A DNA stretch of 64,000 bases from Antedon bifida. Its lineage: Eukaryota > Echinodermata > Crinoidea > Comatulida > Antedonidae. Positions 1,057-41,700 of the stretch are shown in pieces. The notes beneath the pieces were generated by a model, which was not told the origin of the DNA, did no database searches, and saw only the letters and a list, made by a program, of their open reading frames with translations. Where the stretch lies: NCBI GenBank assembly GCA_963402885.1, contig OY727093.1, forward strand, positions 14,935,501 through 14,999,500, read 5' to 3'. The translations under genes and the position numbers were made by a program. The stretch's first letter is position 1. Every line of letters starts with the position of its first letter.

Positions 1057-9497
<8,441 letters not shown>

Positions 9498-12069: not shown

Positions 12070-13145
12070 TTAATATTCAACATACCCGACCCCAACCACC
12101 CTCCCCACCCCCGGGGGAAAATATGTCCTTTGTCTGTACCCTATTGTCCAGCATGTCATTTGAAAGCTTTTTAAGTAAAAAATACAATGCTTCTCTTTAT
12201 TTTGCAGAAATCAGCAAGATTTATTATACAATCTGAATAGAAACCAAGACAATACTATACTACTACAGTATTATATTACTTGATACTTTACCAATATAGT
12301 ATTATACTTATAGTAATTTTATTTGTACATGAATCGTTTATAAAAATAATAATATCGAAAACGTTATACTCCTAAATTGTTCATCTTCTCTTGCGTTACA
12401 TTTTTGGGTTACATTACTTTTTTTAATATTTTAATTGATCTAGATCCTCGTTATTTTGTCTTTTAAATAATCAAATCCCCATCCATAAATAAAATCTAAA
12501 ATCAACAGCCAATTCATAAGGTGATATTTTGAAATTCTTGCCATATTCTTCATAATTCTGTCTGTCCTGCCATTACAAAAGGCTTTAAAAAAAAGAATAA
12601 AATTTACTTAAACCAACAGGAAAACAATCAACAGAAAACATTTTTAAGTATATTACAAAGATATAAACACTATTTATGTAGGAAATGGTTGAGAAACTAC
12701 ATGATTGAATTATCTACTAGCTAGGCTGAGTTAGAGGACAAGCGCCTCATCTGATTGGTCAAACTATAAAATGACTCCCCAGCTTACAAAATAATAGTTG
12801 TTATTGGGATGATGACGTCACATACACATGTCTGAATTTACAAGACATTTTCAATCTTAAAAAATAACTTTTTATCCTACTCATCATAAATACCTAGTTC
12901 TAAGTGATAAAAAACATAATGTTATGATTTGTAATAATATGTTTACTATATGTATACTATTTTTACGGAAAAATGGTATTTTAAACACATGCAAACATTG
13001 GACAGAAATCCCTATTCATTACAATGCAATTTGACATGGCCGACCCAGGCCTAAAACTGCTAAACGCCCCATAAATAAAAAACCACTTTCGCTAGCATAG
13101 ATTTTGATTAAACTTCGTCAAATGACACATTATAGTCTAAATTAC

Positions 13146-14338
13146 GGTGGCCCACAACTGTCACGCACACTATATAAATCATATTCGCACAATTAAAGAA
13201 GGAATCACACAATTAAAGAAGAAATCACACAATTAAAGAAGAGCTAAGCACAATTAAAGAAGTCCGCAACAAATTCGAAAGCTCCTCGCACAATTAAAGA
13301 AGTTTGCAACAAATCAAAAGCTCCTCGCACAATTAAAGAAGTCCGCAACAAATTTGAAAGTACCTCGCACAATTAAAGAAGTTCGCAACAAATTCGAAAG
13401 CTCCTCGCACAATTAAAGAATTCCGCAACAAATTTGAAAGTACCTCGCACAATTAAAGTACAGTAGTCCGTATGGAACACCATCGCTGCCTCCGGCAGCA
13501 AACTTTAATTCTATTCGGCTCTTTTACCATTACGTTCGACTCTTTTAGCATTCGGCGCATTTCTATTCGGCCCATTTACCATTATGTTCGGCTCTTTCAG
13601 CATTCGGCGCATTTCTATTTGGCCCATTTACCATTACGTTCGGCTCTTTTTTATTCGGCCCATTTACCATTACGTTCGGCTCTTTCAGCATTCGGCTCTT
13701 TTTTATTCGGCCCATTTACAATTACGTTCGGCTCTTTTTGATTCGGCCCTTTTTTATTCGGCTCTTTCTTCATTACGTTGGGCTCTTTTTAAATCAGCAT
13801 TTTTTTATATGGCGCAATTAAAATCTAACCTTTGCGCCGTATAAAAAAGGGCCAAATCAAAAAGAGCCGAACGTAATGCAGAAAGAGCCGAATAAAAAAG
13901 GGCCGAATTAAAAAGAGCCGAACGTAATGGTAAATGGGTCGAATAAAGAAGAGCCGAATGCTGAAAGAGCCGAACGTAATAGTAAATGGGCCGAATAAAA
14001 AAGAGCCGAATGCTGAAAGAGCCGAATGCAATGGTAAATGGGCCGAATAGAAATGCGCCGAATGCTGAAAGAGCCGAACGTAATGGTAAATGGGCCGAAT
14101 AGAAATGCGCTGAATGCTAAAAGAGCCGAACGTAATGGTAAAAGAGCCGAATAGAATTAAAGTTTGCTGCCGGAGGCAGCGATGGCGTTCCATACGGACT
14201 ACTGTACTTTAATGTGCGAGGTACTTTCGAATTTGTTGCGGACTTCTTTAATTGTGCGAGGAGCTTTTTCGAATTTGTTGCGGACTTCTTTAATTGTGCG
14301 AGGAGCTTTCGAATTTGTTGCAGACTTTAATTGTGCTT
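13146..14338. mobile_element. 1.2-kb palindrome of tandem repeats (foldback-like)
   Basis: Two arms of about 550-600 bp are inverted copies around a loop near 13833 (GGCGC...GCGCC). The outer part of each arm is a tandem array of CACAATTAAAGAAG with CGCAACAAATTCGAAAGC spacers (about 40-bp unit; 13188-13455 and 14209-14336). The inner part repeats units with TTCGGCCCATTTACCATTAC and CGGCTCTTT (13500-13800 and 13850-14155). Between them, GCTGCC(T)CCGGCAGC motifs at about 13490 and 14170 mirror each other. No protein function. A foldback-type element is the best guess. The flanks do not match copy A cleanly, so the insertion removed or replaced some sequence. Confidence 0.75.
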
Positions 14339-14722: not shown

Positions 14723-17700
14723 ATGAAAAGTCTTGTAAAGGAACATTTAAATTTTAAGAAAATTTATGAAAGGTTAGTAATAACTAGACATGAAACTCGT
14801 CACTTTGACGAGTTAGTTATCCGCACCACGACAAACGCCACGTGCACGTCATACGTTGGAATATTGCACACAGATAAAGATTATGGCATTATGACAAGAA
14901 CTGAAGAATATGATATGCTGTTAGTGCTGAATTCTGTCAATTTTGTGTCATATAGTATATACATGCAAACAGTATAAGCTGTATACATATTACATACAGT
15001 GTAGAATAGGTGAAATTACGGGACCCGCCATTTATTCCAATTTTTAACATGGCGACGGTATCAAAATGAAACACTTAGATAGCAATTTCAGAAGGAAATT
15101 ATCTCAGGAACAACATATTAACGTGTAGAAGAAATTTGAATACGTAAAATATAGATGCGCACCCTTTTAAATGTGATGAACTATTACGCAAAATATGAAA
15201 ATACGACTTTTTTTATTCAACTGGCCATATGATGACGTCAGAACATCCGATTGGCAAAATGTTTACATGAATTCGTATCTACAATCCAATAGCTTCCAGA
15301 AAACGTTTTAATCGTGATTATCACATTTTATTCTTACGAGCTATTACAGATTAAAATTTACTGTAAAGATGAAATTAATGACCCACGTAATTAAAATTTT
15401 TAGGCATGATGACGTCATAAAAATTAAAATATTTTTATCTCATGCTAAAGAAAGTTGATTGACCTACACAATATATAAATGTAGGAGAAAAAGGAATACA
15501 GATAAGCGTGATGCGCTCCATTGAATGTGATGAGCAATAACGAAAGAGACAAAAATCCTATATTTTACATTCGTGTGGCCATACGATGACGTCACAATGT
15601 TTTTTTAGCCTTATTGATGCATGATCCGATATCTACAACTCATCAACTTCTAGATTTTGTAATAAAAATAAACGGTTAACGGTTTACTTTAGAAACTATG
15701 ACTGTTTAAAAAAAGACATAATTTTGACGATTTTTTAAGCTTTTTCATAAAAAACGTGCACGAATTGTCTAATTCAACGTGTTCGTATGGCGTTATTTAA
15801 ACTGGAAAAGGTCTAAATTGTTTTCAAAATTACTAGGAAAGGCTTGAAAAATATAATTCAGGAGAAAAAAATATGTTTTTAACGCTACGTGCGCACCGCG
15901 CGCGTAAAAAATTGCGCGCCCGTGGGAATTTTTGACATGCTCAAAATGACAGGAAACGCGTAAAAAGTTGATTAGAAATTAATTTTGCGCATTTTGAAAT
16001 TTTAAATGCGCGTGCGCGCGTAACTTCTTGTGAAACATGCCATTTTTAATCCGTAGAAAGTTTGCCCCTGATATGACTTAAATTTTGTCAAAGTGTCAAT
16101 ACTAAATGACTTTTGGTTTTTAATCTATGATCAATCATTGAAATTCATAAAATTGCGCGTAAGTCACGTTGCGCAACTATGACGTCATTCAAAAATAGGA
16201 GGTGCACAACTTCACGTAAATGCCCATATGTTGTCAAAGTTATGAAATGTTATGTTTACACATTTTAGAGGAACACGACTCACAAAAAGGAAGGAAGGAA
16301 AGAAGAATAATACAGAAAACTAGATTTGAACTCGTCACTTTGACGAGTTCGGGTTATCCGCGCAAACGCAACATGCACATACTTAACTATATGAACCTCG
16401 ACAATTATTATGCCATCCTATGACATGAAATAAATATGTTTACAGTGCTGAATTGTACCTATTATGTAGCATACACCATATTACAGTATTTTACAGAATA
16501 AACTGTATATGTTATATACAGTGTAGCATAGACAAAATTACGAGACCCATCTTTTAAATCCAATTTTTAACAGGATGACGTCATCAAATTGACATATAAA
16601 GATAACAATTTTAGAAGATAATTATCTAAAAAATTACATTAAAACAAATTTGAAGAATTTTGGGCACGTAAAAGTGAGATGCGCTCTCGTTTAAACGCAA
16701 TGAACTTTTACGCAAGAGATGAAAATATGACTTTTTGAATTCAACTGGCCATATGATGACGTCACAACATCTGATTGGCAAAAAAATCACATCAATTCGT
16801 ATCTACAATCCAATAGCTTCCAGAAAACGTTTTAATCATGATTATCACTTTTTATTCTGACGAGCTATAACAGATTGAAATTTACTGTAAAGATGAAAAT
16901 AAGTGACCCACGTTATTTACGTTTTTAGACATGATGACGTTATAAAAATTAAAGTATTTTTAATTCATGCGAAAGATAGTTGATTAACGTAGACAATATT
17001 AAAATTTCGGGGGAAATGGAATACGTATAAGCGAGAAGCGCTTTATTGAATTTGATGAGCAATAAGGAAAGAGTAAAAAATCCTATATTTTACATTCGTG
17101 TGGCCATACGATGACGTCATAACATCCGAGTGGTAAAGGTTCTGCATGAATTCATATCTACAACATATCTGCTTACATATTAAATTAAAAAAATTGGGGG
17201 TCGTGGATGATCCTGAGGAGCTATAATAGATTAAAAATAGGCTTAATTTTGACAATATGTTGTCACTTTTGCAACTAAAACGCGCGCAAATGGTCTAAAT
17301 CAACGTGTTCGTATGACGTCATTTTAATTTGAAATTATGTCAATCTTTTTTAAAATGACTAAGAAAGGCTGTAAAATCATAATTCAAGAAAAAAACACAT
17401 GATTTTCATGCTCTGTGCGCACCTTACGCGTAAATTTTTTCGCGCGCGTGGGAATTTTTGACATGCTCAAAATGTCATGATCAGCGTAGAAAGTTGATTA
17501 GAAATTAATTTTGCGCATTTTGAAATTTTAAATGCGCGTGCGCGCGTAACTTCTTGTGAAACATGTCATTTTTAATCCATAGAAAGTTTGCCATTGATAT
17601 GACTTAAATTTTTACCAAGTGTCAATACAAAATGACTTTTGGTTTATAATCTATGACCAATCATTGAAATTCATAAAATTGCGCGTAACTTACGCTGCGC

Positions 17701-20700
17701 GACTCTAACGTCATTAAAAATATGGAGGTGCACAACTTCAGGTAAATGTCCATATAATGACAAAGTTATACAAAAGATATATTCACAAGCAATAGGGGAT
17801 ATGCGACGCACAAAAATCCGGGAAAGAAAGAAGAATAACAAAGAAGAAGATGAAAAAAAAGATATTTACAATCACATGGGTTATCCGCAACTAAGTTGCG
17901 GATAACCAAAAAATATTGATCTCATACAATAACAAGGAGTTATCCGCTTGGTATACCAAGCGGATAACTAATTATTAATATAGGCCTAGCTAGGCCTAGT
18001 ATGTCAATACAGGGAAGAGTGATTCACTCTTCCCTGGTCAATATTAAAATAATTAGAATTATATATGTTTTACATGTTTACGTTCTGGTTGAAACTAGGC
18101 CTAATTAATAATATATAAATTATTATAAAATTAGTCTTATCTTTAAAATCTCATTTTTCATAGACTAGACAAGAAAGAAGATGTTAGTGCAAAATACCTT
18201 AATTTTCAACTTGAAGTTATATCATGGAATGATCTTCCAAGTTCTGAGTTCATTCCAACTTCTGTGAAATTGCAAGATAAGCTTATATTAGCATACAGTG
18301 TAAAGGTAACAAAATGAAGTGAATGAATGTGAATGAACTCATGAAGAAACAGTATTTTATTTTATTCATTTCGACAGTATATACAAAAATAAGAGAGAAT
18401 ATAATTATATAAACGACGGGCACAGAACATGAATTCTAAACCGCCTGGTGATATACTGAAATTAATTTGAAACAATAAAAATAAGGAAATTTGTAAGAAT
18501 GAGAAAAAGTCGCCCCAAACCAATATTCATTCTGATGAACTGTATCATTTTTAAAAGTAGACATATTTTGCAACATTTTCATAATTTTTTATAACGTTTT
18601 ACGTGCGCAACCAGTCATGTTTAACATGCTCGTAGAACGTCAAGTTGAATAGTGAATAAAATAACGTAAAATTGTTAACCGAAGTCTGGAAAACACAAAT
18701 CGTGCAAAAGAAATGTTAATACGTGCGTAAAAATGTGCGCACCTGGTGGCAATTTTTTAAACTCTTAAAATGACCTGAATCATGCTCTAATTAAATCAGA
18801 AATTGAAAAACGCCGTTTAAGCACGCACTTTCTAATGTTACAAATTTCGGTAGCGATAAAAAAGTTAGCAATTGATGTGAAGCAAACATGGCATGTTAAC
18901 ACGTTGCAAATAAAAGTTGAACACAAAAAGTGGCGGAAATAGAGAAAAATAATAAAACTAGACATGTAACTCGTCACTTTGACGAGTTTGGTTTTCCGCC
19001 GCGCAAGTGGTGCAACATGAACGTGTAACGACGTACCTTTTAACATTAAGGGATAGGTTGAGGACAAAAGGAAGTGTTCACGTTGGCATTATGACCTGAA
19101 CTGAAGAATATGATATGTTGTTATTGCTGAATTCTATTATTTCGATTCATATATAGTATACACAGTATAATCTGTATCCATATCACACAGTGTAGAATAG
19201 GTGAAATTACTGGACCCGCTATTTATTGCAAATTTTAACATGTTGACGGTTTTAAAATGAAATGCGAAGGTAGCAATTTCGGAAGAAAATTATCTCAGCA
19301 ACAACATATTAACGTGTAGAAGAAATTTGAATACGTGAAATATTGATGCGCGCTCTTTTAAATGTAATGAATTATGACGAAAAAGATGAAAATACGACCT
19401 TTTTAATTTAACTGGCCATATGATGACGTCACAACATCCGATTGGCAAAATTTTTACATGATTTCGTATCTACAATCCAATAGCTTCCAGAAAACGTTTT
19501 AATCGTGATTATCACATTTTATTCTTACGAGCTATAACAGATTAAAATTTACTGTAAAGATGAAATTAATGCCACACGTAATTTAAATTTTTAGGAATGA
19601 TGACGTCATAAAAATTAAAATATTTTTAACTCATGCGAAAGATAGTTGATTGACCTAGACAATATCAAAATCGGGGTGAAAATAGAAAACGAATAAGTGG
19701 AGATGCGCTCTATTCAATGTGATGAGCTATGACGAAAGATACAAAAATCCTAAATTTTATATTCGCGTGGCCATACGATGACGTCACAATGTCCTGTTAG
19801 CCATATTAATACCTGATCCGATATCTACAACTCATCAACTTCCAGAATATGTCATCCACAAAAAGTTGACCGTGTAGTTTAGAAATTACGACTGTTTAAA
19901 AAAAGACATATTTTTAACGGATTTTTTAACTTTTTCATCAAAAACGCGCGCAAATTGTCCAATTCGACGTGCTTGTATGACGTAACTTTAATTTGAAATT
20001 GTTTAAAATTTGGTAAAATTACTAGAAAAGGCTGGAAAAACATAAATCACGCGAAAAAAATATGTTTTCAATGCTACGTGCACACCGCACACGTAAAAAT
20101 TTGCGCATGCGTGGGAATTTTTTACATGCTTAAAACGACATGAAATGCGTAGAAAGTTGATTAGAAATTAATTTTGCGCATTTTGAAATTTTAAATACGC
20201 GTGCGCGCGTAACTTTGTGTAAAACACGCAATTTTTTTTCAACAGAAAGTTAGCGCATGAAATAAATTAAACTTTTGGAAAGTTTCAATTTGAAATGTTA
20301 TTTGGTTTTTGACCTATGTTAAATACGAGGAAATCGTTAAATCACGCGTAAGTCACGTTGCGCAATTGTAAACGTCATGAAAAGCTTCGCAGCACATCTT
20401 CATGTGCATGACGATATGTTGAGAAAGTTACAAAATGTTATGTTTGCAAGTTTTAGAGAAAAGCGTTCCACAAAAATCATACAGAAAGAAAGAAGCCAAA
20501 TAAAAAGTTGATGATTTCGTACAATCACAAGAGGTTTTCCTGCAACTTCGTTGCGGAAAACCAACTAGACATGTAACTCGTCACTTTGACGAGTTTGGTT
20601 TTCCGCCGCGCAAGTGGTGCAACATGAACGTGTAACGACGTACCTTTTAACATTAAGGGATAGGTTGAGGACAAAAGGAAGTGTTCACGTTGGCATTATG

Positions 20701-23700
20701 ACCTGAACTGAAGAATATGATATGTTGTTATTGCTGAATTCTATTATTTCGATTCATATATAGTATACACAGTATAATCTGTATCCATATCACACAGTGT
20801 AGAATAGGTGAAATTACGGGACCCGCTATTTATTGCAAATTTTAACATGTTGACGGTTTTAAAATGAAATGCGAAGGTAGCAATTTCGGAAGAAAATTAT
20901 CTCAGCAACAACATATTAACGTGTAGAAGAAATTTGAATACGTGAAATATTGATGCGCGCTCTTTTAAATGTAATGAATTATGACGAAAAAGATGAAAAT
21001 ACGACCTTTTTAATTTAACTGGCCATATGATGACGTCACAACATCCGATTGGCAAAATTTTTACATGATTTCGTATCTACAATCCAATAGCTTCCAGAAA
21101 ACGTTTTAATCGTGATTATCACATTTTATTCTTACGAGCTATAACAGATTAAAATTTACTGTAAAGATGAAATTAATGCCACACGTAATTTAAATTTTTA
21201 GGAATGATGACGTCATAAAAATTAAAATATTTTTAACTCATGCGAAAGATAGTTGATTGACCTAGACAATATCAAAATCGGGGTGAAAATAGAAAACGAA
21301 TAAGTGGAGATGCGCTCTATTCAATGTGATGAGCTATGACGAAAGATACAAAAATCCTAAATTTTATATTCGCGTGGCCATACGATGACGTCACAATGTC
21401 CTGTTAGCCATATTAATACCTGATCCGATATCTACAACTCATCAACTTCCAGAATATGTCATCCACAAAAAGTTGACCGTGTAGTTTAGAAATTACGACT
21501 GTTTAAAAAAAGACATATTTTTAACGGATTTTTTAACTTTTTCATCAAAAACGCGCGCAAATTGTCCAATTCGACGTGCTTGTATGACGTAACTTTAATT
21601 TGAAATTGTTTAAAATTTGGTAAAATTACTAGAAAAGGCTGGAAAAACATAAATCACGCGAAAAAAATATGTTTTCAATGCTACGTGCGCACCGCACACG
21701 TAAAAATTTGCGCACGCGTGGGAATTTTTTACATGCTTAAAACGACATGAAACGCGTAGAAAGTTGATTAGAAATTAATTTTGCGCATTTTGAAATTTTA
21801 AATACGCGTGCGCGCGTAACTTTGTGTAAAACACGCAATTTTTTTTCAACAGAAAGTTAGCGCATGAAATAAATTAAACTTTTGGAAAGTTTCAATTTGA
21901 AATGTTATTTGGTTTTTGACCTATGTTAAATACGAGGAAATCGTTAAATCACGCGTAAGTCACGTTGCGCAATTGTAAACGTCATTAAAAGCTTCGCAGC
22001 ACATCTTCATGTGCATGACGATATGTTGAGAAAGTTACAAAATGTTATGTTTGCAAGTTTTAGAGAAAAGCGTTCCACAAAAATCATACAGAAAGAAAGA
22101 AGCCAAATAAAAAGTTGATGATTTCGTACAATCACAAGAGGTTTTCCTGCAACTTCGTTGCGGAAAACCAAAAAAGTAACACTACAATAACAAGGGCTTA
22201 TCCGCTTGAGGCGGATAACCAATATTGTAATAAAGCAACCATATTTCTTAGACATGATTCTAAAGTCACTAGACTGGGTTTTTTTAGGTTGTTTGGCACA
22301 GTGAAAAATGCTTGTTTCATAATGTGTAAAGTTTGTTTTAAATGTGTTTAGTCTTACAGAAAAGATCGTTTTGAAGACTCTTACACAAATGATGATGACT
22401 CATACTACAATGGAGATGACACATGCAATGTAGATGACATGTGCAATGGAAACGCATGCCTTGGAAACAGCATTCTTGATGATACTGCTGACAAAGATGA
22501 GATTCGATATCCTGGTGTCAGTCTGGGAAAAGCAAGGTATTCCATTTTATAACATGGGTTCAAGGATCTAGCTAATCAGACGCGCTGAAATGAGTCAGTT
22601 GTGCGCTCTTTATTTTTTCACTATCATGCACTGGAGTGTAAAAAGTGTGCAGCAAAAAAGTATAACAGCACTCTGTCTGTAAATCGTCAATTTGTTTACA
22701 ATTTACATTATTTTATACCATCGAATGTAAGAATTCTATTTGAAAACCAAAATTATACCTAATTAGTTATCCGCTTAGTAGCAAATAACTCCTTGTGATT
22801 GTATTTTTTTTTTCTGTATTGTTCTTCTTTCTTTCTCGCTTTTTTGTACATCGCCTTTCTCTAAAATGTGTAAACATAACATTTCATAACTTTGACAACA
22901 TGTGGCCATTTACGTGAAGTTGTGCGGCTTATATTTTGAAAGACGTCAGAGTTGCGCAACATGACTTACGCGCGATTTTATGATTTTTATTGATTGATCA
23001 TAGATTAAAAACCAAGCTTTTTTTTTTTACACTTGGTGAAAATCTAAGTCATATCAAGGTCAAACTTTCTATGGATTAAAAATGGCATGTTTCAAAAGAA
23101 GTTACGCGTACACGCGCATTTAAAATTTCAAAATGCGCAAAATTAATTTGTAATCAACTTTCTACATTTTGAGCATGTCAAAAATTCCTGTGCGCACGAA
23201 AAATTTTACGCGTAAGGTGCACACGGAGTATGAAAAACATATTTTTTTCTCTTGAATTATATTTTTCAAGCCTTTCCTAGTAATTTTGAAAACAATTTAG
23301 ACCTTTTCCAATTTAAATAACGCCATACGAACATGTTGAATTAGACAATTCGTGCACGTTTTTTATGGAAAAGCTTAAAAAATCGTCAAAATAATGTCTT
23401 TTTTTAAACAGTCATAGTTTCTAAAGTAAACCGTGAACCGTTTATTTTTATTACAAAATCTAGAAGTTGATGAGTTGTAGATATCGGATCATGCATTATT
23501 AAGGCTAAAAAAACATTGTGACGTCATCGTATGGCCACACGAATGTAAAATATAGGATTTTTGTCTCTTTCGTTATTGCTCATCACATTCAATGGAGCGC
23601 ATCACGCTTATCTGTATTCCTTTTTCTCCGACATTTTAATATTGTCTAGGTCAATAAACTATCTTTCGCATGAGATAAAAATATTTTAATTTTTATGACG

Positions 23701-26700
23701 TCATCATGCTTAACAATTTTAATTACGTGGGTCATTAATTTCATCTATACAGTAAATTTTAATCTGTAATAGCTCGTAAGAATAAAATGTGATAATTACG
23801 ATTAAAACGTTTTCTGGAAGCTATTGGATTGTAGATGTGAATTCATGTGAACATTTTGCCAATCGGATGTTGTGACGTCATCATGACTTAAAAAAGTCAT
23901 ATTTTCATCTTTTGCGTCATAGTTCATTACATTTAAAAGAGCGCGCATCAATATTTCAGGTATTCAAATTTCTTTTACACGTTAATATTTTGTTGCTGAG
24001 ATAATTTCCTTCCGAAATTGCTACCTTCGCGTTTCATTTTGAAACCGTCAACATTTTAAAAATTGGAATAAATAGCGAGTCCCGTAATTTCACCTATTCT
24101 ACACTGTATGTGATATGTATACAGATTATACTGTGTATACTATATGACACAAACTAACAGAATTCAGCAATAACAACATATCATATTTTTCAGTTCAGGT
24201 CATAATGCCATAATCTTTTTCTGTGTGCAATATTCCAACGTATATGACGTGCACGTGGCGTTTGTCGTGCAGATAACTAACTCGTCAAAGTGACGAGTTA
24301 CATGTCTAGTGTTTATTTTATATCTTTAGGCAATGTGGCCAAGGATTACCAATCGTAAATTAATCACTGTCTTATATGATAGGTGGTAATCCCCCTGATA
24401 CAGTGAAGCAGTTCACCAGGGTAACCCCCCTACTCATCTCGAATAATGAACTGGGTTCTTTAAAGTGCACACAGGTTATGTGTACACTGGACCTACAGTT
24501 TATAGTCCTTATCCGAGAAAACTTGTTCCACCACCAGAACTAGGAGTGAGTCGGCCTTCAATCCTTGCCGATATTGTTGGCTCTTTAGGTACAGTAAACA
24601 GCGCCCCTGCTTTAACCGCTCGGCCATTTGACTCTCTTTTTGATTGTCAATAAGTCCCTGGTGACAATTGTTTGTAATTTTGTACTGTATGTTTTAGGAG
24701 CCTCTTGTCATTATTTTGTTTATGGAAAGATGAGTCAACATTGCCTACAACCCCATTGTGGGTGATGTGTGACGGCAATGCATCGGAGCATGTATTCCTC
24801 ATGGGATGTTCATGGCAAAAAAATGAAGTACACAATCATGTAATTAACACCTACACAATATCCTGCCAAGGTAAATTCTACAGTTTATTCTGTCATTCAA
24901 ATGATTAAAATAAACTATAATTCGAGCAGAATAATAACAATCTGTAATAATAATTAATAGTCTTTCTGCATGTAATACAGTATATTAATGAAACTTTTAA
25001 TGGTTATTTTATAATGAAATATCTGAAATATGTTGTGTAGATTTTTAATTTAATCTAAGCTAGCAAATTCAGCAAATTTCTAGCACGCTGGGTTAATTGA
25101 GAAAACAAAAATAATACAATATTGATTTCTGCTAGGTCCATATCACAATAAGAGTGAGATTCCCTCTGTTCAACATCTCATGGAAGGGTTTTGCCAATCA
25201 GAAATTGTGAATGTAAGTCATAAATTCCTTTCTTATTTCATGAAGTTTTCTTTTTGTTGATTTCATATTTCACTTAATACTACTATTTTATTCACACTGC
25301 CGCTGCATTTTTTACAAATAGTGTTTATCCAAGGACCAGTGTTGCTGTACTTCACATGAATAATTTTGCAAAATTATTCCTGATTTGAATATGAATAGTA
25401 ATGGTTTTATAATGGAGTACATTTGCATGTTTGATTAGCCATTATATAAATATATTTATTTATCAAATTTTAGGTATATATAGAGCTTATGATCCATGCT
25501 AAAACTTCATGAAACCAAAGTTCATTTCATCCAATAAGCAAAACCTGAGAATGTGAACTTCTGTCCTTAATGGGTTAATAACATTGCAAAGTGCGATAGA
25601 GATAAACATTCTAATTATAGTCAATTGAAAGATGTCAACAAATGTATAAATCAAATATCATTGCCTTCTTTACAGTACATTTACAGTTAAAGTAGAATAT
25701 CACCTTTTTGTGTGAAAATATGCTTAAAATAAGAGCGATTAACAAGTAATGCCCACCACATACATTTAGAATGAGTTGAAAGACAAGGCCAGTAGCCTAA
25801 TTGTACAAGTTAAAGTTTAGGTTGGAGCCACTTCTTTCACTGAGGCTAGAGTTCCTACTCTTACTGGTTTACATTTATATGTTTAATTTTATTTATGCTT
25901 GGTTTAGTGTTCCATTGACAATGAATGATACTATTACTATTTTTTATATTCAGGTAACTGCTAATGGCTATGCCCAATACGATGTTCTTGGGGCAAGCTT
26001 CTCTGAGAGAAGTGCAAGTGATCTTGGTGGTGCATCTAGTGTTATTGTGGAATGTGAATGGGAAGATGTCGAAATGATGTTAGAGGTACCACATTGTGCT
26101 AAATGCAAGCTGGTGAGTGTCCTTAAAGAACAGTACCTATCAAGTTCAACTCTCCTCAGAAGGAGACTTTTTTCTGTTTGACATAAGACATAAAGACATA
26201 AACATTTATTAGTGTGCCAAATAAAATGTTCGTTTCTTGACATCACATACAATGAAATTTGCTAATAACTTAATAGTATTTGGTTTTCTAGACTTAAATA
26301 ATGAAACAAAGTAGAACATATTTGAAATATAATTTGGAATGAAATGATTTCTTTCTTGATTATATAATGGACAGTTAAAAATAAAATGAAAGATGTCCTC
26401 TACTTCTTCTTTCTTACATAGTGTACAAATGCGTTCCGGATAGGGCAAATTCATCCATTTACCTGGGCTTCTAAATTCAGAATACCAAGTCAAAAATAAT
26501 CTTCAACACAGAGATTAGTTTTAAATTGACGGTAAATGGAAAGGGATGCATAATTATTAATTCATTATCATTTACAAGTATACAAACATCCTGGGATGTA
26601 TAATTTCAAAATAGAGAAGAGATAGAGATTGACTGGAAGTTGTCAAATAAAATTATAAATTGCTTGCAACCAAAAGTCTTATGCAGTAACCATTTAATTG

Positions 26701-38700: not shown

Positions 38701-41700
38701 ACTTGTCAAAATGTTCATATCTGTGGATGAGTACCAGTTGACTACGACCCATGTGAAGGTTGTGCACGTTCACTCACAGTAGACCTATCTTAGTAACCTC
38801 TCAGATTAATACCTCTCTTCTGTTTATTAACAGATATTTATTGGATTAATTTTTTTTTTGGTTATCCGCACTTGGCGGATAACCCCTTGTTATTGTCACG
38901 ATCTTTTTTTTTTTCGATTTTCTTCTTTCTTTCCACGAATTTTGTTCGCAGCGTATCTCTAATTCTGGTCAACATAAGATTGTATAGCTCTGTCATAAGA
39001 TTGACCTGTAGCTGTAGATGTGCAAGAAACTTCATTTTATGATTTTAGAGTTGCGCAACGTGACTTACGCACGATTTTATGAATTTCAATGATTGATCAT
39101 AGAGTAAAAACTAAAAGTCACTTTGTATTGACACTTGGTAAAAATTTAAGTCATATCAAGGGCAAACTTTCTATGGATTAAAAATGGCATGTTTCACAGA
39201 AGGTTACGCGCGTTTAAAATTTCAAAACTTCTAATCAACTTTCTACGCGTTTCATGGTCATTTTATTTTGAGCATTTCAAAAATGCCCACGCACACACAT
39301 TTTTTTACGCGCATGTGCGCACGCAGCGCAAAAACATACTTTTTTCGAGTGATTTATGTTTTTCCAGTCTTTTCTAGTAATTTTACCAACTTTTAAACAA
39401 TTTCGACTTAAAATTACGTCTTACTAGCACGTGGAATTGGATAATTTGCGCACGTTTTTGATGAAAAAGTTTAAAAATTCGTCAAAATTATGCCTTTTTT
39501 TAAACAGTCATAGATTCTAAACTACGTGGTGAACATTTTTTAAATTAGATATTCTGGAAGTTGATGAGTTGTAGATATCGAATCATGCATCGATATGGCT
39601 AACCGGACATTGTGACGTCATCGTATGGCTACTCGAATATAAGGATTTTTGTCTCTTTCGTCATAGCTCATCACATTTAATAGAGCGCATCTCTACTTAT
39701 CCGTATTCCATTTCCCCCCATTTTTTTATATTGTCTAGGTCACTCAATTATCTTTCACATGATTTACCATTTTTTAAATTGTGATGACGTCATCATGTTC
39801 AAAATAACTTTGGTCACTTATTTTCACTTATTCTGCACTGAATGTAGTACGTATACAGTATAGTGTTATGCTGTGTATACTTAGACGTGACACAAAATAG
39901 AGAGCACACTAACATTTTTTCAATGGCATAATTGTTTTTCTGTGCGCAATATTCTAATGTATGACGTGCATGTGGCGTTTGCGCTGCAGATAACCTAACT
40001 CGTCCGCAGTGACGAGTTCAAATCTAGTTTTTTTAAAATGTTTTCTTGGTCATTGAACGTGTTCCTTTGATGTTTAATTATTGACATTTATACTCATTTC
40101 TTAGAAGAATATTTTCTGTACTGTCAGTCACTAAACTTGTCACATTTAGTCAAATGAAAAATGTCAATTTGTGTTATTGACTTTTGCCACAATTTGTCAT
40201 GTCATATTCTGTTTTAGTCATGTGTTTTCAGGCTCATGATGAGACCACAGGACTACATGGTATATGTCATGTACTCTCATTTATTTGATGGTATTGTATC
40301 CTTTTTCTTATGAACCAAACCTTGAGTTATTGTTGGCCCTTCAGTTCTTTAAATAAAGTTTTATTTATTCTGCATTCAAATTTTATTTCAGAACAGATAT
40401 AAATTTGATCAGCATTCTAGAATGATTTCAAGTTCTTCAGATAGTTGTTAGCTGCAAGTGATTACTGTTATATGATTTACTACTACTTATGAATAAACAA
40501 TATTACATTTACTAGACCATGATCATTGTTAATTAATATCTTGGCTTGCATCTCTTTACAATTTCCATAGAGATGCCAGTAAGCACAGTGAAGTAAAATA
40601 ATAAAACACCATAACTAATGGTTAATTCAATTAGAGTCAAGCTGACAATTTACGTTTAGTGATGTAAATATTTATAAATACTTGACTTGAGTAATAGGTA
40701 GTCTTACTGAACATACAAAAATGGTAAATTCTGTAATTTTACATCATGGACGAAGTGTACTAAATTTCTCTCCGTCGTACTTTGGACTTCCAGAATCCAT
40801 TAAGTCTGGTGTATTTGAACCTTAAATACACGATAGCTTCGATCGTCATAAGTAGATCTTCATAACTACTGTATCTTATATTACTCCGTATAACATTGTT
40901 AACAGCCAGAGGATGTTTTATCATGCAAATACATGCAACCATTGAAGATCTATGATCTAAATGGAATTAAGATCTTCTTCCTAATGTACATACTGTTATA
41001 AATACACTGTATTGATCATGAATTTATAATTAAACAGTGTAAATGGCACTTTTGATTTAATCCTGGTGAGCAAACAGATTTAAGCAAACATGGTATGGCA
41101 TATGCTTCTATAATTTGAGTGGCAAACGATTAAGAGACTATAACATCCCGAGTATCCTCTCTGTGATTGGTTACTCATTCTCAACACATAATTTTCTCCC
41201 ATAGTACTATCCTAATTAACATGTACTCATTTATTTTAATTAATACATTGGTTACAATATACAGTATGCCTGTTCAATAATCAGATTACACATAAAAATA
41301 CAATACAGTATTATATACGAAATTGTAGCAAAATTGAAAACTATGATAGCAAGGATTCGTTCAACAAAATTTCAAAGAAATGTATTTCCATTGGGATCTT
41401 CCAATTAATATATTTGCACTCAATATCTAAGTATCTAAATTCAATAGGGTTAAAAATTGTATCCAAAGAACATTATTAGTTAAAGATATATGGTCCCCCA
41501 AAAACATGAAAAATGAAGATTAATTAAATCAGTAGTTTTAATAAAGTTAATACTTCTGTAGAAAAAAAAAACATTAACAAAATAATGTTTTCTCTTATAA
41601 AGTTACAAAATAAATGGTTAAATTAAAAAAACCCATTGGCTGGCAGCCAATTTGACTATTTTTTGCTTTAGATTAAAGTTTTTTTCAGGTAAATAATTGT

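Follow-up and report, generated by a model that had tools for sequence, protein, structure and literature searches.

Does a perfect head-to-tail junction between two mobile elements record rolling-circle replication past a terminator, or can it arise in another way? The question is raised by two 1607-bp units, RC-3 and RC-4, which follow each other without a gap in a 64,000-nucleotide stretch of the genome of the crinoid Antedon bifida (contig OY727093.1, positions 14,935,501 to 14,999,500; the whole stretch is called the window below). A sequence-only reading of the window had taken the junction as a sign of reading past the terminator. Comparison with similar junctions across the genome somewhat favours a different origin, in which non-autonomous Helentrons (HINEs) would land on the ends or in the A-tracts of resident copies, and end-to-end joining guided by subterminal inverted repeats (subTIRs) would build the chains. 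The pair consists of the following parts.

18957..20563, minus strand: RC-3, a 1607-bp unit classed as a HINE; the strand is inferred from the Helentron convention, in which the CTAG end is the 3' end
20564..22170, minus strand: RC-4, the second 1607-bp HINE unit, with five differences from RC-3 and one from a single copy on contig C15
20533..20606, no strand: exact junction of RC-3 and RC-4, made up of a palindromic end with subTIR (20533-20562), an A (20563) and the ACTAGA end with palindrome and subTIR (20564-20606)
18968..18988, no strand: palindrome AACTCGTCACTTTGACGAGTT of RC-3, 11 nt from the ACTAGA end and by convention the 3' palindrome
18990..18999, no strand: subTIR GGTTTTCCGC of RC-3, with an inverted copy at 20553-20562

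One end of the unit consists of ACTAGA, the palindrome AACTCGTCACTTTGACGAGTT and then GGTTTTCCGC, and the other is a palindromic hairpin closing in GCGGAAAACC-A. The two units differ at unit positions 255, 1126, 1152, 1190 and 1423. At their boundary GGAAAACCA is followed directly by ACTAGACATG, with nothing between 20563 and 20564, and the near-identical units described by the sequence-only reading are indeed joined base to base. The tandem is confirmed as genuine and beyond chance.

The same reading proposed a genome search for further tandem junctions, and this search was productive. In the 315.6 Mb searched (27 contigs), the RC-3/RC-4 junction string GTTGCGGAAAACCAACTAGACATG occurs exactly 34 times, against none for a reversed control, and a wider pattern matches 285 exact junctions in forward orientation; its 1423 matches on the reverse strand are an inflated count, since a variable gap lets the pattern match repeatedly. 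Palindromic ends of the RC-3/RC-4 type number 212. Where a GGAAAACC-type end is followed by ACTAGA within 30 nt (n = 75), the spacer measures 1 nt in 46 cases, 2 nt in one, 3 nt in none and 4-29 nt in 28. Random landing in runs of A is rejected as the source of exact junctions, because the spacer counts peak sharply at exactly 1 nt. Two other counts were set aside. A second tandem-end pattern (149 forward matches) is unspecific and includes other arrangements, since the hairpins are palindromic, and a count of ACTAGA plus 3-6 bases before CTCGTCAC misses family S2 and the RC-3/RC-4 type.

The joined ends tend to be of like type. Within single bracketed units, the two ends agree in subTIR type in 69 of 71 cases (the mean of 20,000 shuffles was 19.5, and none reached 69). 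On contig C1, among the matches listed, 32 of 43 distinct junctions are subTIR-matched, when 15.0 are expected and none of 20,000 shuffles reaches 32. Ends were paired into brackets in the window and 20 loci (L009-L028; L019 lies within a joined stretch of contig C11), one strand at a time, a procedure that is blind to insertions in opposite orientation. A-tract insertions were counted where the two ends of the host agree in type, other hosts being left out. Matching subTIRs are found at 28 of 38 exact joins in these loci, whereas the A-tract insertions match in 2 of 16 cases (Fisher p = 4.9e-5). The A-tract insertions start 1495-1561 bp from the ACTAGA end of the host in 15 of the 16 cases; the sixteenth starts at 2847, in a host with two S2 stretches.

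Neighbouring units are rarely siblings. Of 28 exact junctions with a bracketed left unit, one lay too close to the end of its locus to be used. The first 900 bp were compared for the remaining 27, one of which offered too little alignable sequence and was scored as unlike. In 26 of the 27, the left unit is more closely related to some other member of the set (83 units besides itself) than to the unit next to it, and RC-3/RC-4 is the only junction where the neighbour is the best match. Copying of one element twice is thus disfavoured, because sibling neighbours are rare, and self read-through is rejected as the general cause for most of the compared junctions. In a four-copy lineage (0-8 differences), three copies each abut exactly on a different resident, these residents being 91.6-97.9% alike, and the fourth lies in an A-tract. 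A young seven-copy lineage of family S1 (3-16 differences; L022-L027 and the joined C11 stretch, L019), with four copies exactly at resident ends and three in A-tracts, lends itself to dating and to the study of target choice.

These comparisons bear on how the RC-3/RC-4 junction itself should be read. Since 26 of 27 left units are closer to a unit elsewhere and 10 of 38 exact joins have unlike subTIRs, a perfect junction is not diagnostic of self read-through, and the claim that it signals reading past the terminator does not hold for the sample. The sharp position of the junctions together with the subTIR preference calls for recognition of ends, and subTIR-guided end-to-end joining is the better fit to the sample. 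A mechanism can be outlined on this basis. RC-3 and RC-4 are short and non-autonomous, and belong to a group in which the long elements code for Rep, helicase and endonuclease. Insertion of new copies would take place between two A residues (two T residues on the opposite strand), with two preferred kinds of target, namely the precise ends of resident copies and an A-tract that lies some 50-85 bp inward from their palindromic end. The transposase may recognise the resident end by its subTIR and join the incoming element there, and the chemistry would presumably be that by which Rep cuts the donor end. Head-to-tail chains would then enlarge by accretion of unlike copies, among them an autonomous element of 17.8 kb. 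More tentatively, docking of this kind may be a habit of Helentron transposases, and tandem Helitrons elsewhere may owe their origin to it and not to read-through.

The preference for AA is visible at the palindromic ends, where the base following the terminal A is an A in 91 of 91 cases (AA here, TT on the other strand). A chain of units in locus L021 splits a known S2 end between ACTAGAATTTA and ATTCGTC with no base lost or doubled. Paralogues that lack the RC-3/RC-4 insertion can be aligned to the site with roughly one gap base, which fits TT insertion without target duplication. RC-3/RC-4 lies in an older Helentron-like repeat, the S4 host, and when the two flanks of this host are joined (query junction 197/198), paralogues run contiguously across the insertion point in 33 rows of at least 97 (40 of 754 candidates were scored). 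These rows span query 126 to 249 or 251, the best 13 at 93%, and six further rows end at query 190-199, the insertion point.

Several observations weigh against the joining of elements at subTIR-matched ends. Firstly, the base preceding ACTAGA is not always an A (A in 74 of 90 cases, G in 10, T in four and C in two); the A of ACTAGA itself was a prerequisite of the search pattern. Secondly, the 10 unlike joins depart from the subTIR rule. Thirdly, the sample is uneven: the loci were selected for S1 content, so that host and neighbour frequencies are biased (hosts towards family S2), relatives were drawn from 84 units over the first 900 bp, and junctions are partly non-independent owing to segmental duplication and exchange among closely alike units. 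Fourthly, unlike pairs recur (B then A on contigs C14 and C12; X then D on C14 and C8), which also fits pairs moving as one unit. Finally, chance docking of RC-4 and RC-3 on the end of a sibling looks unlikely, with four known siblings among 212 ends, and a dimer event is therefore favoured for this pair.

The strongest competitor of end-to-end joining is rolling-circle read-through or a circle multimer, in which copying continues past the terminator and RC-3/RC-4 is inserted once as a dimer; we put this a little short of an even chance. Precise head-to-tail junctions have been described in Helitron circles (PMC4778049), and RC-3/RC-4 is the one pair of 27 whose neighbour is the best match. 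Both units come from a single recent lineage. Each shows only changes of its own, as after a single arrival, because the closest two other copies have the RC-4 state at four of the five variant sites and the RC-3 state at one. Three of these sites are invariant in all other units of a set of 33, and at the remaining two the RC-3 base is seen again in one and two other units. Over the full length, however, both RC-4 (one difference) and RC-3 (four) are nearer to the copy on C15 than to each other (five), and no change is common to RC-3 and RC-4 but absent from the C15 copy. Moreover, the two other known copies of the lineage stand singly, and the same exact junction is also formed between different families. 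For RC-3/RC-4 itself, a single read-through or dimer event is about as likely as two docking events.

Movement of unlike pairs is a less probable explanation, and on balance an unlikely one. Here the inner terminator would be skipped, the pair would travel jointly, homologous exchange would swap the partners and docking on ends would be rare. The B-A and X-D pairs recur at A-tract positions that differ between loci, as expected of travelling pairs, and pair movement with unit exchange may account for some of the unlike pairs that recur. Joins across unlike bodies (S2 to S1, S3 to S1, and AGTTAT type to autonomous element) nevertheless require separate joining events. Assembly or segmental duplication of one unit, suggested by the near-identity of RC-3 and RC-4, is very improbable given five scattered differences, breakpoints that coincide exactly with the ends of the elements, the length of the contigs, a junction string that recurs identically 34 times in the genome and like junctions on other contigs.

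In reverse complement the unit runs from TGGTTTTCCGC to GCGGAAAACC, the palindrome, 11 nt and a final CTAGT; the subTIR starts at base 2 and, at the opposite end, lies 33 nt from the terminus. In a mite the Helentron subTIRs are placed at distances of about 2-4 nt (5' end) and 38-60 nt (3' end), and the Helentron palindrome is expected 8-35 bp from the 3' end (PMC4067079), a range into which the 11 nt of the present units fall. The hairpin that the sequence-only reading regarded as the 3' terminator is thus probably the 5' end, because the plan of the unit is close to the published Helentron plan (PMC4067079), and the CTAG-T end with the palindrome 11 nt inside would be the 3' end. This assignment has a cost, since the transposase frame then opposes the conventional direction. 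A Helentron of D. ananassae has its transposase frame likewise against convention (PMC4067079), and further reversed cases are named in PMC5148889. Spacings of 51-83 bp between palindromic ends (n = 32) were considered as evidence of replication direction and not used, A-tract nesting being sufficient to produce them; among 89 ACTAGA ends, no two are spaced by less than 300.

On these features RC-3 and RC-4 are Helentron-type elements, with a subTIR distance slightly outside the mite values, and the rolling-circle nature proposed for them is borne out by their ends and by an element in the genome that has ends of the same plan and encodes Rep and helicase. The RC-3 family has at least 108 BLAST matches (39 of 3511 first-look candidates were scored), and three of them besides the query are listed at 100%, namely RC-4 and single copies on contigs C15 and C14. 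Helitron_like_N gives 39 matches genome-wide, fragments included, of which 11 lie within frames of at least 3000 codons. The one autonomous neighbourhood read, on C11, holds an element of 17,822 bp between paired ends of the GGTTATCCGC type and joined exactly to other units on both sides. Its 3133-codon frame without stops contains OTU, DUF6570, Helitron_like_N (E 3.4e-35), PIF1 (E 2.4e-29) and Exo_endo_phos (E 5.2e-10). An HVH motif and a Walker A motif are present, as in a Rep (HUH) with a PIF1-type helicase, and a simple two-tyrosine Rep pattern has a single candidate, Y-xxx-Y at residue 2138. Exo_endo_phos follows PIF1, in keeping with the Helentron endonuclease (EEP). Helraiser is not known to have an endonuclease. 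The autonomous partner sought by the sequence-only reading is found as to the plan of its ends; a single base separates its subTIR GGTTATCCGC from the one in RC-3/RC-4, and the element is therefore taken as of the partner's kind rather than as the exact partner.

The autonomous elements have further features. The N-terminal half of the transposase frame contains, besides the OTU domain, a Herpes_teg_N match (C11 element, L049), and relatives have Lys-rich repeats such as KYRSNLKFRQ ahead of the Rep domain (L031, L032, L039, L045, L046). Helitron_like_N matches about 33-37 kb apart on one strand (C10:7512334, 7545862 and 7583191; C11:11231037 and 11264147) look as if long autonomous elements and short companions had been repeated together.

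Other members of the group in the window, and the S4 host, are these.

14783..16318, minus strand: RC-1, first part, with the remainder at 17909-17970
16319..17908, minus strand: RC-2, nested in the A-tract of RC-1
17909..17970, minus strand: remainder of RC-1 with its own palindromic end of the AGTTATCCGC type
18760..18956: left flank of the S4 host, cut in its A-tract by RC-3/RC-4
22171..22221: right flank of the S4 host, the remaining 51 bp with the palindromic end
22764..24310, plus strand: RC-5, an uninterrupted relative of RC-1 in opposite orientation
38859..40028, plus strand: a further short member of the group, with about 85% identity to the reference unit of S3

RC-1 and RC-2, previously regarded as an older tandem, are in fact nested. 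RC-2 is flanked within RC-1 by AGTTATCCGC on one side and GCGGATAACT on the other, the ends pair by type, and RC-1 without RC-2 aligns to RC-5 at 1432 of 1558 aligned bases. The ACTAGA end of the S4 host itself was not found.

Some repeats of other kinds occur as well. Pattern matches at C8:14549309-14549784 and C8:18268808-18269652 are runs of palindromic ends in close tandem, the former with seven successive match starts exactly 50 bp apart, an even period that nesting alone would hardly yield. In the window, about 1 kb at 13327-14336 is self-complementary (90% in an inverted self-alignment) with repeats 52 bp apart, and 7946-8787 and 12070-12903 form an inverted pair of about 840 bp with 92% identity. 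The window has four frames of at least 110 codons, and a tRNA scan of it gave none.

Tandem Helitrons can be taken for traces left by rolling-circle replication. With hundreds of exact junctions in several subfamilies, the relatedness of neighbours and the type of their ends can separate repeated insertion from circle replication, and this first sample speaks against self read-through being the common origin of tandems. The kind of element is known, and the joining rule is the interesting part. Tandem Helitrons and self-insertion have already been published (PMC5148889, PMC7492417). No statement of subTIR-matched exact joining or of precise adjacent insertion was found in the searches made of the open-licence literature, which is no proof of novelty, and a paper on rice Helitrons (PMC4683698) has no bearing on joining.

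Comparison with known systems places the units closest to Helentrons and HINEs/DINE-1 (PMC4067079), with which they share subTIRs, a palindrome near one end, TT insertion without duplication and a partner encoding Rep, helicase and endonuclease. They differ in the 3' subTIR, which is 33 nt from the end instead of 38-60 nt as in the mite, and in the exact end-to-end chains, which are frequent and mostly subTIR-matched in this genome. Canonical Helitrons are more distant: the 5' end is TGGTT rather than TC and insertion is at AA/TT rather than A/T, although the 3' end CTAG-T does contain CTAG, a form of CTRR. Helraiser (PMC4778049), a canonical Helitron with 5' TC, shares the rolling-circle mode and a hairpin near the CTAG end, and its circles have precise head-to-tail junctions. 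Cg_HINE of the Pacific oyster (PMC7492417) shares the HINE anatomy and T-rich targets; there short repeats lie inside the element, whereas here whole elements are in tandem. FoHeli of Fusarium, of Helitron2 type (PMC5148889), has in common terminal hairpins, asymmetric inverted repeats, self-insertion and duplicated 5' termini, but no endonuclease domain was found in the fungal elements according to that paper, while one is encoded here. For a three-copy tandem in Metarhizium the same source offers both repeated insertion and circle replication, and where that was a single case, the many junctions of Antedon bifida allow the two causes to be compared.

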